From Corynebacterium freneyi (GTDB lineage: Bacteria > Actinomycetota > Actinomycetes > Mycobacteriales > Mycobacteriaceae), in NCBI RefSeq assembly GCF_030408835.1, contig NZ_CP047357.1, positions 372,001-436,000 on the forward strand: a DNA stretch of 64,000 nucleotides, written 5' to 3'. Shown here in pieces: positions 42,178-46,120 of the stretch; the first letter of the stretch is position 1; each line of letters begins with the position of its first letter. The notes under the pieces were generated by a model. That model did no database searches. It was not told the DNA's origin and saw nothing but the letters and a program-made list of their open reading frames with translations. The translations under genes and the position numbers were made by a program.

Positions 42178-42261
42178 CCGCCGGATCGCCGCGCCCGTAG
42201 CCCCGGACTCACAGGGGCAGCGGTGAAGGGTGCTCACCGGGTCTTTTCCCGGTTTTCGGGA

Positions 42262-42267
42262 TAGGAT
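42262..42267 (+). promoter_or_regulatory. Putative leaderless promoter -10 of the 42275 gene
   Basis: TAGGAT (TANNNT) ends seven bases before the ATG at 42275, and no convincing ribosome binding site is present. This is the same arrangement as at map. Confidence 0.45.
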
Positions 42268-42274
42268 GTCCCCC

Positions 42275-43684
42275 ATGTCCGATTCTTTCTGGGAGTTGGC
42301 GATCGTCGCGTCGGACGCTCCCGCGGCGGCGATCCGACACCGGGGCAAGGTCACGCCGCTGGGCACCGGAAACCTGCCGGAGCTCATCGCGAAGGCCGCC
42401 GAACGCACCCCCACGACGGAACCCGCCACGCTCGTCCTCGTCCATCCGCGGTCGATGACCGTCGAGGTCATCGGCGGCTGGTTCGCGATGCTGTCCGAAC
42501 TCGGCGTGCATTCCGGCACCGTGCGCACCGTCGCCGACACCGAAGTGCTGGCCACCGCCCGCTTCGGGGAAGGCGACTCCCGCGAGGTCATCGTCGGCGA
42601 CGTATTCTCCGGCGAGGTCTACGGCCGCAGGGGAGCGACCGCGGGCTCCCATGAGCCGCTGGCCGTCGCCATGCCGCGGATGGTCACCGAGGCCGGCGCC
42701 CTGAAGACGTGGCCCGTGCTGGTCGGCAACGAATCCGGGTTCCAGCGGTACATGCCGCAGCTCGAGGGCAGCCACATCCGACCGGCGGCGTGCACCACCG
42801 AGATGCTCGCCGTCGGTGCCCTGGACCCGGATCGGCTGCGCACGATGATGGGCATGGAATCCCGTCGTCGCGCCGAACGGCGGGCGGCGCGGCAGGACGC
42901 GGCCCCCGCCCGGTCGAAGATCCCCTGGTGGTGGTCGCTTCGGCGGCCGGTCTTCGCGGCGCTGGCGGTCCTCGTCGCCGTGGTCGGCGTGATCGTCGCC
43001 TTCGACGGCTTCGAGGGGTCCGATCCCGACGCCACGGTCGATGAGGTCCTCGGCCCCGCGGCAGGCGGGGGCGCCGCGGGAGACGACGACTCCGGCCGTG
43101 ATCCGGCGACGGTGCCCGCCGCCGCCGGCCCGGAGACCCGGTCGGCACCCGAGCCCGTCGCACAGGGAGCGGACATTCCCTCGGCCGTCGGGTACTACTT
43201 CGACCTCTTCGACCCGGTGCCGCTGTTTTCCTCGCTGAACAACTGCTTCGACGGCGAAGGGCGCAAGTACGAGAAGCTCTCGCTCTACTGCGCCGGACGC
43301 GGCCGGGAGCTCAACGACTTCGCGGCGGCCAACGGCCTGCCGGAGCTCGCCCGGCCCGACGCCCACGTGTCCATCCACTTCGACACCCGCAACACGCTGC
43401 CCGGTCCGGTCTCCCATCACCACGAGTGCCTCATCGACTACCAATATCCCCGCGACGACGCGGTCGACGGTGCCTGGGTGGAGGTCAGCGAACCCTGCGA
43501 CCCCGACGATGAACGCTACGAGGGCCCGTGGCCCGAGGACGAGCAGGCCGACATCACCATCCACGACGTCCGGTACGTGTACGAAACCGATGAGGGCGAG
43601 CACCACCCGGTCATCAGGATCTACGGGTTGAAGGACCTCGCCGCCGTCGACGCGATCCTCGAGCACCTCGGCGTGGTGAAGTAA
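42275..43684 (+). CDS. Unknown single-pass membrane protein
   Basis: I do not recognise this 469-residue protein. Residues 1-200 are a cytoplasmic-looking alpha/beta region (SFWELAIVASDAPAAAIRHRGKV, VLVHPRSMTVEVIGGWFAMLSELG). A basic stretch (RRRAERRAARQ) precedes one transmembrane helix at about 224-245 (FAALAVLVAVVGVIVAFDGF). A Gly/Ala/Asp-rich linker follows, then an exported domain with paired cysteines (NNCFDGEGRKYEKLSLYCAGRG; HHHECLIDYQYP; SEPCDPDD), suggesting disulfides. This inside-one-helix-outside layout is seen in sensor or cell-envelope assembly proteins, but no function is claimed. Transcription appears monocistronic, with an inverted repeat downstream. Confidence 0.6.
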   Translation: MSDSFWELAIVASDAPAAAIRHRGKVTPLGTGNLPELIAKAAERTPTTEPATLVLVHPRSMTVEVIGGWFAMLSELGVHSGTVRTVADTEVLATARFGEGDSREVIVGDVFSGEVYGRRGATAGSHEPLAVAMPRMVTEAGALKTWPVLVGNESGFQRYMPQLEGSHIRPAACTTEMLAVGALDPDRLRTMMGMESRRRAERRAARQDAAPARSKIPWWWSLRRPVFAALAVLVAVVGVIVAFDGFEGSDPDATVDEVLGPAAGGGAAGDDDSGRDPATVPAAAGPETRSAPEPVAQGADIPSAVGYYFDLFDPVPLFSSLNNCFDGEGRKYEKLSLYCAGRGRELNDFAAANGLPELARPDAHVSIHFDTRNTLPGPVSHHHECLIDYQYPRDDAVDGAWVEVSEPCDPDDERYEGPWPEDEQADITIHDVRYVYETDEGEHHPVIRIYGLKDLAAVDAILEHLGVVK

Positions 43685-43962: not shown

Positions 43963-45207
43963 ATGAACTTCACCCGCATATTCAACTCGCTGCTGTTCAA
44001 GATCATCGTGGCGATCGTGCTCGGCATCGGCTGCAGCTTCTTCTTCCCCGAATGGCTGGCCCGGGTGTTCGTCACCTTCAACTCGCTGTTCAGCGGCTTC
44101 CTCGGGTTCTTCGTGCCGGTGCTCATCTTCTCCCTGATCACCCCCGCGATCGCCTCCCTCGGCCGCGGCGCCGGCAAATGGCTCGGCGTCACCGTCGGCA
44201 TCGCCTACGCCTCCACCGTCATCTCCGGCCTCATCGCCTACGCCGTCGCCAACGGCCTGTACTCGTGGCTCCTCGCCGACCAGGAACTCTTCGAGGCCGC
44301 CGACGTCGAAGCCGGTGGCCTCGCGCCGTACTTCACCATCGAGATGGAACCGCCGTTCGCCGTGATGTCGGCGCTGCTGCTGGCGTTCACCGTCGGCATC
44401 GCCATGACCGCCGTGAAGTCCGACACCCTGCAGGCCGGCGCCGAGGAGCTGCGCGCGGTGATCATGAAGGTCATCGAGAAGTTCGTCATCCCGCTGCTGC
44501 CGCTGTTCATCTTCGGCATGTTCCTGTCGATGGGCATGAACGGCAACCTCACCGAGACCCTGTCGGCGTTCCTGAAGGTCATCGTGCTCGCGACGATCAT
44601 GACGTGGGTGGTGCTGCTGGTCCAGTACCTGCTCGCCGGCGCCTACGCGGGCGTCAACCCCTTCCGCGCGCTGAAGAACATGCTGCCCGCCTACTTCACC
44701 GCCCTGGGCACCTCGTCGTCGGCGGCCACCATCCCGGTGACCCTGAAGTCGACCCGCGCCAACGGAGTCAGCGAGTCCGTCGCCGGCTTCGTCGTCCCCC
44801 TGTGCGCCACCGTGCACCTGTCGGGTTCGATGATGAAGATCGGCCTGTTCGCCTTCGCCGTCATGTACCTCACCGGCGCGGAGCTGACCCTGGGCATGGC
44901 GCTCGGGTTCGTCCTCATGCTGGGCATCATGATGGTCGCCGCCCCCGGCGTGCCCGGCGGCGCCATCATGGCGGCCGTCGGCTTGCTGCAGTCCCAGCTC
45001 GGATTCGACGAGTCGCAGATCGCCCTGATGATCGCCGCATACATCGCCATCGACTCGTTCGGCACCGCCTGCAACGTCACCGGCGACGGCGCGATCGCGC
45101 TGACCGTCAACAAGATGGCCAGCGGCGACGTCGGCGGCGAGAAGTACGACGCCGCCCTGACCGGCACCGGCGGCGCAGGGGTCGAGGCGCGCTCCGGGCG
45201 CGATTAG
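43963..45207 (+). CDS. Dicarboxylate/amino acid:cation symporter (DAACS family)
   Basis: A 414-residue membrane protein of the GltP/DctA/SstT superfamily. It has the serine-rich re-entrant loop (TALGTSSSAATIPVTLK), the later TM7 region (FVVPLCATVHLSGSMMKIGLF) where the glutamate-transporter NMDG motif is replaced by HLSG, and HP2-like APGVPGGAIMAAVGLL. The HLSG variant means the substrate cannot be predicted as glutamate or C4-dicarboxylate with confidence. ATG at 43963 follows GAGG (43955-43958); the longer upstream frame is Arg/Pro-rich and unlike the family. The abiF-like RNA unit follows. Confidence 0.88.
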   Translation: MNFTRIFNSLLFKIIVAIVLGIGCSFFFPEWLARVFVTFNSLFSGFLGFFVPVLIFSLITPAIASLGRGAGKWLGVTVGIAYASTVISGLIAYAVANGLYSWLLADQELFEAADVEAGGLAPYFTIEMEPPFAVMSALLLAFTVGIAMTAVKSDTLQAGAEELRAVIMKVIEKFVIPLLPLFIFGMFLSMGMNGNLTETLSAFLKVIVLATIMTWVVLLVQYLLAGAYAGVNPFRALKNMLPAYFTALGTSSSAATIPVTLKSTRANGVSESVAGFVVPLCATVHLSGSMMKIGLFAFAVMYLTGAELTLGMALGFVLMLGIMMVAAPGVPGGAIMAAVGLLQSQLGFDESQIALMIAAYIAIDSFGTACNVTGDGAIALTVNKMASGDVGGEKYDAALTGTGGAGVEARSGRD

Positions 45208-45254
45208 CTTCGGAAAGCCGCAGACGCCGTCCGCCCGCTGCGTGGGCGCAAGTC

Positions 45255-45283
45255 TTGCCACGCGGCCGGGGACGGACTAGCGT
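45255..45283 (+). promoter_or_regulatory. Promoter of the small structured RNA
   Basis: A -35 TTGCCA (45255-45260) and a -10 TAGCGT (45278-45283) are separated by exactly 17 bases. Transcription would start near 45290, a few bases before the outer hairpin. This is the best two-part promoter I see in the window. Confidence 0.6.
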
Positions 45284-45289
45284 GGGCGT

Positions 45290-45358
45290 CGCAGCGACCC
45301 CGAGGGAAACTGGCCTGCGGTGATTGGACCGCAGAGCGAAGACCCTCGGGGCATTTTT
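45290..45358 (+). ncRNA. Small structured RNA upstream of the Abi/HEPN gene (abiF-RNA-like)
   Basis: From the predicted start (about 45290) the transcript forms an outer stem CCCCGAGGG (45298-45306) with CCCTCGGGG (45343-45351). Inside it is an inner stem CTGCGGT (45315-45321) with ACCGCAG (45328-45334). The internal loops are purine-rich (AAACTGGC; AGCGAAGA). The outer stem is followed by CATTTTT, an intrinsic terminator. So promoter, about 69-nt structured RNA and terminator form a compact unit. It lies just upstream of, and co-oriented with, an Abi-family HEPN protein gene, the position of the known abiF RNA motif. An alternative is a terminator of the DAACS gene, but the inner stem and the dedicated promoter argue for an RNA gene. 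Confidence 0.6.
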
Positions 45359-45379
45359 CTTCGGCAGAAGGGGAACTCG

Positions 45380-46120
45380 GTGGGGATGGGGCCGGAGTTG
45401 TTGGGGGCGGAGAAGTTCGGTTCGTTCGTCGACGAGTGTGGCGGGAACCAAGCTCAAGCCGCGAAACTCGCCGTATTCAATTTTCGGCTTGCCGGTGCTT
45501 ATCTGCCTGCGCTGGCGGCGATGGAGTTGGCGCTGCGCAATCGAATCGCGTCTGCGCTGGCCGAGGAATTCGGGCCCGACTGGCCCGAACGCCTCGCGGC
45601 GGGCGACATCGTGTCTTCATTGCGGTCCAGGCGAAAGTTGAACTTGCTCGATGAGCATGCGGACATGTTCCGGGAAGCCCGAGACCACCTTCGGCGGAAG
45701 GACCGTCCCGCAGAGGCCCCCGACATCATCGGGGCCACGAGCATGGGGATATGGGTCGGTTTGACGGGGCAAGGTGCTCCCCATCGAGCGAAATACTATG
45801 AGTCTCAGCTGTGGACGCCCGTGATCCGAAAGGCTCTCCCCGCGCTCGATGCCGCGTACGGCGGTCGGGTTCGAGGTGGCAGGTATACGTTGAGGGAGAG
45901 CCTCCACCACGACCTGAATCGGCTCCTCGATTTCCGCAATCGCGTGGCCCATCACGAGCGAATCACGCACCTCGATCACGAGGTGATCGTCGAACGACTC
46001 GCGCGTGTGATGACCGCCCTCGTCGAGATCATTCCCGTCTGCCTCGATGACCTGATTCCGATTCCCGATGAATGGTCGAAAAGGCGGATCAACGTCCTGC
46101 AGGGCGGTGCCCGGTGTTGA
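45380..46120 (+). CDS. Abi-family (AbiF/Abi_2-like) protein with HEPN RNase motif
   Basis: A 246-residue soluble protein (244 if ATG 45386 is used) of the actinobacterial Abi family. Marks are FVDECGGNQAQAAKLAVFNFRLAGAY, the RN motif in MELALRNRIAS, a conserved TSMGIWVGL segment, and R186-x4-H191 in LDFRNRVAHHE, the HEPN ribonuclease signature RxxxxH. Related proteins (AbiD/AbiF) give abortive phage resistance, and AbiF-type modules pair a HEPN protein with an upstream small RNA, as here (45290-45358). GTG 45380 or ATG 45386 was chosen because GAAGGGGA (45367-45374) precedes them; a longer frame from 45320 would start inside the RNA hairpin. It is an accessory gene placed just before infA. 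Confidence 0.75.
   Translation: MGMGPELLGAEKFGSFVDECGGNQAQAAKLAVFNFRLAGAYLPALAAMELALRNRIASALAEEFGPDWPERLAAGDIVSSLRSRRKLNLLDEHADMFREARDHLRRKDRPAEAPDIIGATSMGIWVGLTGQGAPHRAKYYESQLWTPVIRKALPALDAAYGGRVRGGRYTLRESLHHDLNRLLDFRNRVAHHERITHLDHEVIVERLARVMTALVEIIPVCLDDLIPIPDEWSKRRINVLQGGARC

Follow-up and report, generated by a model that had tools for sequence, protein, structure and literature searches.

A promoter-led nested-hairpin RNA and its HEPN gene in Corynebacterium freneyi: a probable RNA toxin-antitoxin module of the AbiF kind

We analyzed a 64,000-nucleotide (nt) stretch of the Corynebacterium freneyi genome (the window; G000:C1:372001-436000, genome size 2.88 Mb), in which a short predicted RNA with a promoter-like site precedes a gene for a HEPN protein of the abortive infection (Abi) group. 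The unit is probably a two-part toxin-antitoxin or abortive-infection module of the AbiF kind, in which the RNA would restrain a HEPN ribonuclease (RNase). This reading rests on computed evidence, namely the layout of the unit, the promoter-stem geometry, a covarying stem, the protein family, an AbiF-like model fold and the tracking of HEPN clades by RNA classes. An RNA-restrained toxin was taken as the most likely function because of the kinship with AbiFCd/RCd22, PbAbiF, PD-T4-5 and AbiD/F. The AbiF-type kind is already known, and the RNA of the present branch is a variant.

The promoter-like site on the forward strand (45255-45283) consists of TTGCCA (45255-45260) and TAGCGT (45278-45283) separated by 17 nt, exactly as the original prediction had read it, and its geometry resembles that of 17 other loci described below. 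Behind it stands a nested double stem (45298-45351). Its outer 9 base pairs (bp) are formed by CCCCGAGGG (45298-45306) and CCCTCGGGG (45343-45351), and its inner 7 bp by CTGCGGT (45315-45321) and ACCGCAG (45328-45334). A T5 tract (45354-45358), possibly a partial terminator (attenuator), follows. Direct reading, an independent inverted-repeat search and the predicted fold confirmed the two nested perfect stems ending in T5. The predicted small RNA or 5' leader would span about 65-70 nt (45290-45358), with its 5' end placed from the -10 box and its 3' end from T5. The segment 45285-45365 folded at -39.5 kcal/mol (z = -2.93), and none of 200 dinucleotide shuffles was as low. A Shine-Dalgarno-like stretch, AGAAGGGG (45366-45373), precedes the GTG start codon of the HEPN gene at 45380.

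Some caveats apply to this reading of the sequence. The hairpin by itself is only moderately unusual: a scan of the 64 kb for perfect nested 9+7 bp stems gave one site, identical on the two strands, and six 64-kb sequences simulated by a first-order Markov model contained 1, 0, 1, 0, 1 and 2 such sites when one strand was counted, with no TTTT behind any of them. The case therefore rests on context. Further, neither a simple sigma-70 scan nor a terminator scan reported the promoter-like site or the RNA; the -10 box fits TAnnnT rather than TATAAT and the loop exceeds the limit of the terminator scan. The open frame also reaches further 5', to a GTG at 45320 within the RNA. The start at 45380 is favored because of the Shine-Dalgarno-like stretch and because the database protein P0001 (99% identity), whose cluster at 90% identity has 36 members, starts at the same residue.

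The original prediction had proposed a search with the abiF covariance model of Rfam (RF03085; we used Rfam 15), and this search was negative. RF03085 did not match the window at the gathering score or positions 45000-45700 at E up to 5; nor did it match 30 related loci at E up to 1 (one being the window's own) or 20 at the gathering score, and a portion of L138 gave no match even with E allowed to reach 10. In the related loci and the upstream stretch, Rfam returned only tRNA, tmRNA, signal recognition particle RNA, glycine riboswitch, group II intron and weak sub-gathering matches.

The gene itself (45380-46120, forward strand; 246 amino acids) was assigned to Abi_2/AbiD-F/PD-T4-5-like HEPN proteins by profile and structure comparisons. 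The previously noted signature RNRVAH (residues 186-191; codons 45935-45952), read directly and in alignment, is the R-x4-H motif of HEPN RNases, and R186, R188 and H191 were invariant in all 15 aligned rows. The earlier designation as an Abi_2/AbiF protein agrees with the AbiF-like fold and the HEPN motif, but Pfam Abi_2 (PF07751) scored 22.6 bits (E = 1.5e-4), under its gathering cut-off of 25.6; with E 0.01 as the limit, this profile matched 14 of 15 clade members. The best PADLOC match was PD-T4-5 (E = 6.1e-9; residues 32-195 on model positions 39-204 of 309), whose profile matched all 15 clade members, and the PADLOC AbiD model reached only E = 0.0089. The protein model showed an AbiF-like fold, with PbAbiF-ncRNA (PDB 8vz6) as its best structural relative (12% identity over 200 aligned residues). 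A PDB sequence-profile search did not reach the AbiF chains; its listed matches, to designed ankyrin repeat proteins (DARPins) and one exported protein, were rejected as helix-composition matches. No relatives were detected in phage records at E 1e-5 or in viral contigs.

The homologues came from 201 genus genomes (46 matched), 394 class genomes (61) and 401 family genomes (103) and, further, from the best 80 of 453 loci of named genomes and from 242 genus genomes (10 at E 1e-40). Loci were retrieved for part of the matches and their upstream 200-260 nt were inspected; the resulting table holds 178 rows, corresponding to 175 distinct genes. Three recurrent RNA classes, types I, II and B, were found upstream of these homologues, and none had an Rfam 15 match in the loci tested. 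Type I comprises an outer CCCCGG/CCGGGG stem, an inner RUGC hairpin and a 3' GAGG, and was assigned by a script demanding GAGG in 79 of 178 rows (77 of 175 distinct genes, two of them doubtful). The motif CAGAGG was invariant across the 35 type I sequences chosen for alignment, and the hosts were Pseudomonadota, Actinomycetota, Acidobacteriota and a cyanobacterium. Types II and B were assigned by eye. Type II, a GCCC..GGGC outer stem enclosing one or two variable hairpins, was present at 18 loci including the window, the named ones all from Actinomycetota. Type B, in which a long hairpin comes first and a more conserved one second, was present at 16 loci of the genus. The remaining 67 rows carried no RNA label, including the dropped doubtful type I calls L002 and L122; L002 has a pair of hairpins upstream of position 1444 and scored weakly for type I (E = 0.049).

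A best-stem score of at least 14 in the upstream 160 nt was found for 82 of 176 homologues and 46 of 324 other open reading frames (ORFs) in these loci; dinucleotide shuffling reached the observed upstream score in about 24% of cases, and the crude count differs only mildly. Because high G+C content makes stems cheap, we relied on motif, place, promoter spacing and covariation rather than on stem counts.

All 18 type II RNAs folded as an outer stem closing one or more inner hairpins. In the best promoter-like pair, the -10 box preceded the stem by 11-12 nt at 17 of 18 loci and by 14 nt in the window; 16 of 18 -35 boxes started with TTG, and 16 of 18 -10 boxes were TAnnnT. Positions drawn at random from these loci equaled the promoter scores in a median of 0.7% of cases (7% in the worst locus, L004). 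TAnnnT alone was found at 11 nt in 11 loci, at 12 nt in four and at 14 nt in the window, with three further matches elsewhere within 44 nt. The spacing of promoter and stem thus indicates the strand and suggests that the RNA begins a few bases before the stem.

In an alignment of 13 type II sequences that left out the window, the seven outer pairs were standard in all 91 cells (86.4% in shuffles) and both sides had changed in 15 cells (3.9 in shuffles); pairing was 57-58% when the partner was slid by one column. The numbers of pairs with a double change and of pair types were not above those of shuffles, and three of the seven outer pairs were invariant. The 35 type I sequences showed covariation as in type II, and here too the number of pair types did not exceed that of shuffles (107/500). 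Among 13 type B sequences, RNAalifold predicted 16 pairs, and for nine of them at least one sequence had both sides changed. When the window was included in an automatic alignment, RNAalifold recovered six outer pairs, four changed on both sides; the worst pair was broken in 6 of 17 cells and the covariation term was -0.09, partly through MAFFT row shifts. The original prediction had named a lack of conserved structure upstream of homologous Abi genes as an argument against it; covarying stems were found there.

The window RNA shows the type II architecture, an outer stem with an inner hairpin, a TAnnnT box before it and an Abi gene downstream, with a spacing of 14 nt versus 11-12 nt elsewhere. 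A covariance model built from the 13 other type II RNAs ranked 45288-45366 first in the 321 nt upstream of the gene (12.0 bits, E = 0.0011, pairs standard), followed by 45225-45261 (10.6 bits, E = 0.0031). In the whole 64 kb the window RNA ranked third (E = 0.22), behind two sites that presumably score by chance. The window RNA appears to be a divergent type II member, with a membership that rests more on architecture, place and promoter than on sequence. In two relatives with type II RNA, L028 and L282, the RNA is kept and the Abi genes appear frame-broken: the gene of L282 is split across two frames, and the middle of that of L028 reads out of family.

A tree built from the 111 rows with an RNA label (109 different proteins) was used to examine how the RNA classes are distributed. 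On it, the three classes required two changes, the minimum possible, compared with a mean of 31.6 for shuffled labels (0 of 200 shuffles as low as two), and type II occupied one side of a branch with a support of 90 in the Shimodaira-Hasegawa-like approximate likelihood ratio test (SH-aLRT). RNA class thus tracks HEPN clade, a result that is strong but not blind, since types II and B were labeled by eye and untyped rows were excluded. In a first, wide tree, the window clade comprised 16 rows, 14 of which had type II RNA; P0002, a 64%-identical protein, had no DNA to inspect, and in L019 type II RNA was not seen and the upstream part looks disrupted.

Searching from the RNA side, a type I model (R2) matched 33 of 246 class genomes, at 47 places in total. 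Thirty loci were examined (17 of the 47 matches lie outside them), and 20 had a same-strand Abi ORF directly downstream; five of these 20 were training loci and one (L248) was a fragment. The other ten had no Abi ORF downstream, six of them at E < 1e-7. In L254, L258, L260, L261, L262 and L265, the RNA at 1501 matched type I at E values from 6e-16 to 5e-8 and no Abi-family ORF follows; a tblastn search for abi remnants at E 1e-3 found none in five of these six loci and a 42-residue stretch in L260. Solitary RNAs of this kind, also seen for type II (below), might be antitoxin RNAs able to act alone, which we offer as a lead only. The type II model (R1) was unspecific: at E 0.01 it gave 27 matches in 26 of 242 genus genomes, four of them with an Abi-family ORF downstream, including two training loci (L277 and L278, identical to L004 and L032), and no match in the window's own genome. 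This search used stricter filters, by which known members such as L010 were lost. In L279, L280 and L284 (about 1501-1565), type II matches show the GUAA that usually flanks this RNA on its 5' side, yet the 3 kb examined contained no Abi-family ORF.

We infer the transcript ends, RNA-protein binding, toxicity and release by phage in the following scheme. A single promoter would produce the short nested-hairpin RNA; most transcripts probably end at the T-tract, and some would continue into the HEPN gene. The RNA would bind the HEPN dimer and keep the RNase in check, similarly to a type III antitoxin. Phage infection would upset transcription or the RNA, by which the RNase would be freed and the cell halted.

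In type III toxin-antitoxin systems (ToxIN, AbiQ), the RNA antitoxin is encoded before the RNase gene, an order shared by the predicted RNA and the HEPN gene, and the RNase fold is unrelated to HEPN. Unlike the nested hairpin, their RNAs are pseudoknots (PMC12373285). The AbiFCd-RCd22 system of Clostridioides difficile shares the order of promoter, RNA, T-tract, Shine-Dalgarno sequence and HEPN (abi) gene, the last without a promoter of its own (PMC12373285). Its promoter gives rise to two transcripts, a short one that is abundant and a longer one made by read-through; RCd22 binds and neutralizes the toxin AbiFCd in cis and in trans, and toxicity requires R202/H207 (PMC12373285). However, RCd22 consists of two RF03085 motifs and a separate terminator hairpin, whereas the window has one nested hairpin with T5 directly behind. 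In L201, L202 and L203 the RNA is present in two tandem copies, in L201 and L202 upstream of a same-strand Abi-family gene; these copies resemble the two abiF motifs of RCd22.

PbAbiF is likewise a HEPN R-x4-H protein of similar fold with an RNA partner, which inhibits it (PbAbiF-AbiFr structure 8VZ6; PMC12737573). In contrast, identity is 12% and the window RNA is unmatched by Rfam abiF; the comparison with 8vz6 covered the protein. PD-T4-5, the best PADLOC match, is a plasmid-borne defence gene of E. coli and a distant AbiF/D relative that gives Abi defence (PMC9519451). Its model has 309 positions versus 246 residues, and the cited part of PMC9519451 does not mention an upstream RNA. AbiD and AbiD1 of Lactococcus lactis belong to the AbiD/F group, and abiD1 has a structured 5' leader and a short terminated upstream transcript (PMC12373285); they differ in that a phage protein acts on the abiD1 leader and in the weak AbiD score of the window protein. 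The original interpretation is partly supported: an AbiF-like RNA/HEPN unit with its own promoter-like site and structured, covarying RNAs upstream of homologues were borne out. For the proposed role of the RNA, to guide or restrain the nuclease, restraint is the function demonstrated for AbiFCd (PMC12373285), but guiding found no evidence here.

The main rival explanation is that the hairpin is solely a cis-acting leader, an attenuator or 5' untranslated region (5' UTR) of the Abi gene as for L. lactis AbiD1, and yields no free RNA antitoxin. The T5 directly behind the stem, the Shine-Dalgarno-like stretch a few bases on and the single promoter-like site serving RNA and gene are consistent with this, as is the control of abiD1 through its 5' UTR with a short terminated transcript upstream (PMC12373285). 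However, four or more T in a row followed the stem at only 7 of the 18 type II loci; within 14 nt of the stem, the other 11 and all 79 type I loci had no such run, indicating that termination is not the conserved trait. Further, some of the RNAs have no nearby Abi gene, and RCd22 works in trans (PMC12373285). We consider a leader without a free RNA unlikely.

It is far less probable that the RNA is a guide steering the HEPN nuclease to a target RNA. The Cas13an HEPN domains group with AbiD/F (PMC12165695), and this kinship with Cas13 and the variable apical part of the RNA would suit a guide; however, each of the 18 folds closes the apical part into a hairpin of its own, the AbiF-system RNAs studied to date are inhibitors (PMC12373285; PMC12737573), and we found no positive evidence for guiding, although target matches were not searched for. 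Just as improbable is a terminator of the upstream SDF-family (DAACS) transporter unrelated to the Abi gene. The hairpin does start 90 nt past the stop codon of the transporter gene, with T5 at its end. In the gap, however, there is a promoter-like site whose spacing is close to that of the clade, and the same layout precedes Abi genes in 17 homologues. In G015, the transporter (74.6% identity) precedes infA with no abi gene, and the 180 nt that follow it gave no nested stem even when only 6+5 bp were required. A plain terminator was rejected on the conserved promoter geometry, the G015 locus and the T-run counts.

Beyond the restraining RNA proposed for this locus, the window might exemplify a large group of RNA-HEPN toxin-antitoxin modules, so far uncatalogued, in Actinomycetota, Pseudomonadota and others, a proposition on which we are evenly divided. 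Such a set would have at least three covarying RNA classes, each inherited with one HEPN clade, and solitary RNAs persisting as possible anti-addiction or anti-toxin RNAs. Searches of open-licence papers turned up no description of the RNA of this branch or of how RNA classes correspond to HEPN clades; outside that search, Cell 2025 (Zilberzwige-Tal) and NAR 2017 (Weinberg) may contain one. AbiF-type RNA/HEPN pairs have been proposed as ancestors of Cas13 (PMC12165695; PMC12373285), and three RNA classes following three HEPN clades offer a natural series in which to ask how an RNA partner changes around a retained nuclease. The classes would also let annotators detect such modules from the RNA side, and the solitary copies make antitoxin function in trans directly testable.

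The unit is preceded by an M24 peptidase gene (called map), an ORF without Pfam match and the SDF-family symporter (DAACS), and followed by infA (eIF-1a family). The ORF between map and the symporter (42230-43681; 484 residues) had no Pfam matches at E 0.001. The original prediction considered the position inside the core translation region striking; the linkage was not conserved. We matched infA in 30 of 31 genomes searched. With up to 1.5 kb of flank viewed, no abi gene was beside infA in any of the 29 other genomes and map was present in 24, showing that the unit occupies a variable map-infA stretch. In G001, which has the most similar infA (91%), map lies directly 5' of infA. The window's own genome holds three further Abi_2/AbiF-like genes (G000:C1:79830-80447, 1751789-1752373 and 2647285-2647968); a hairpin pair lies upstream of the second, and a type B RNA, assigned by eye, upstream of the third.
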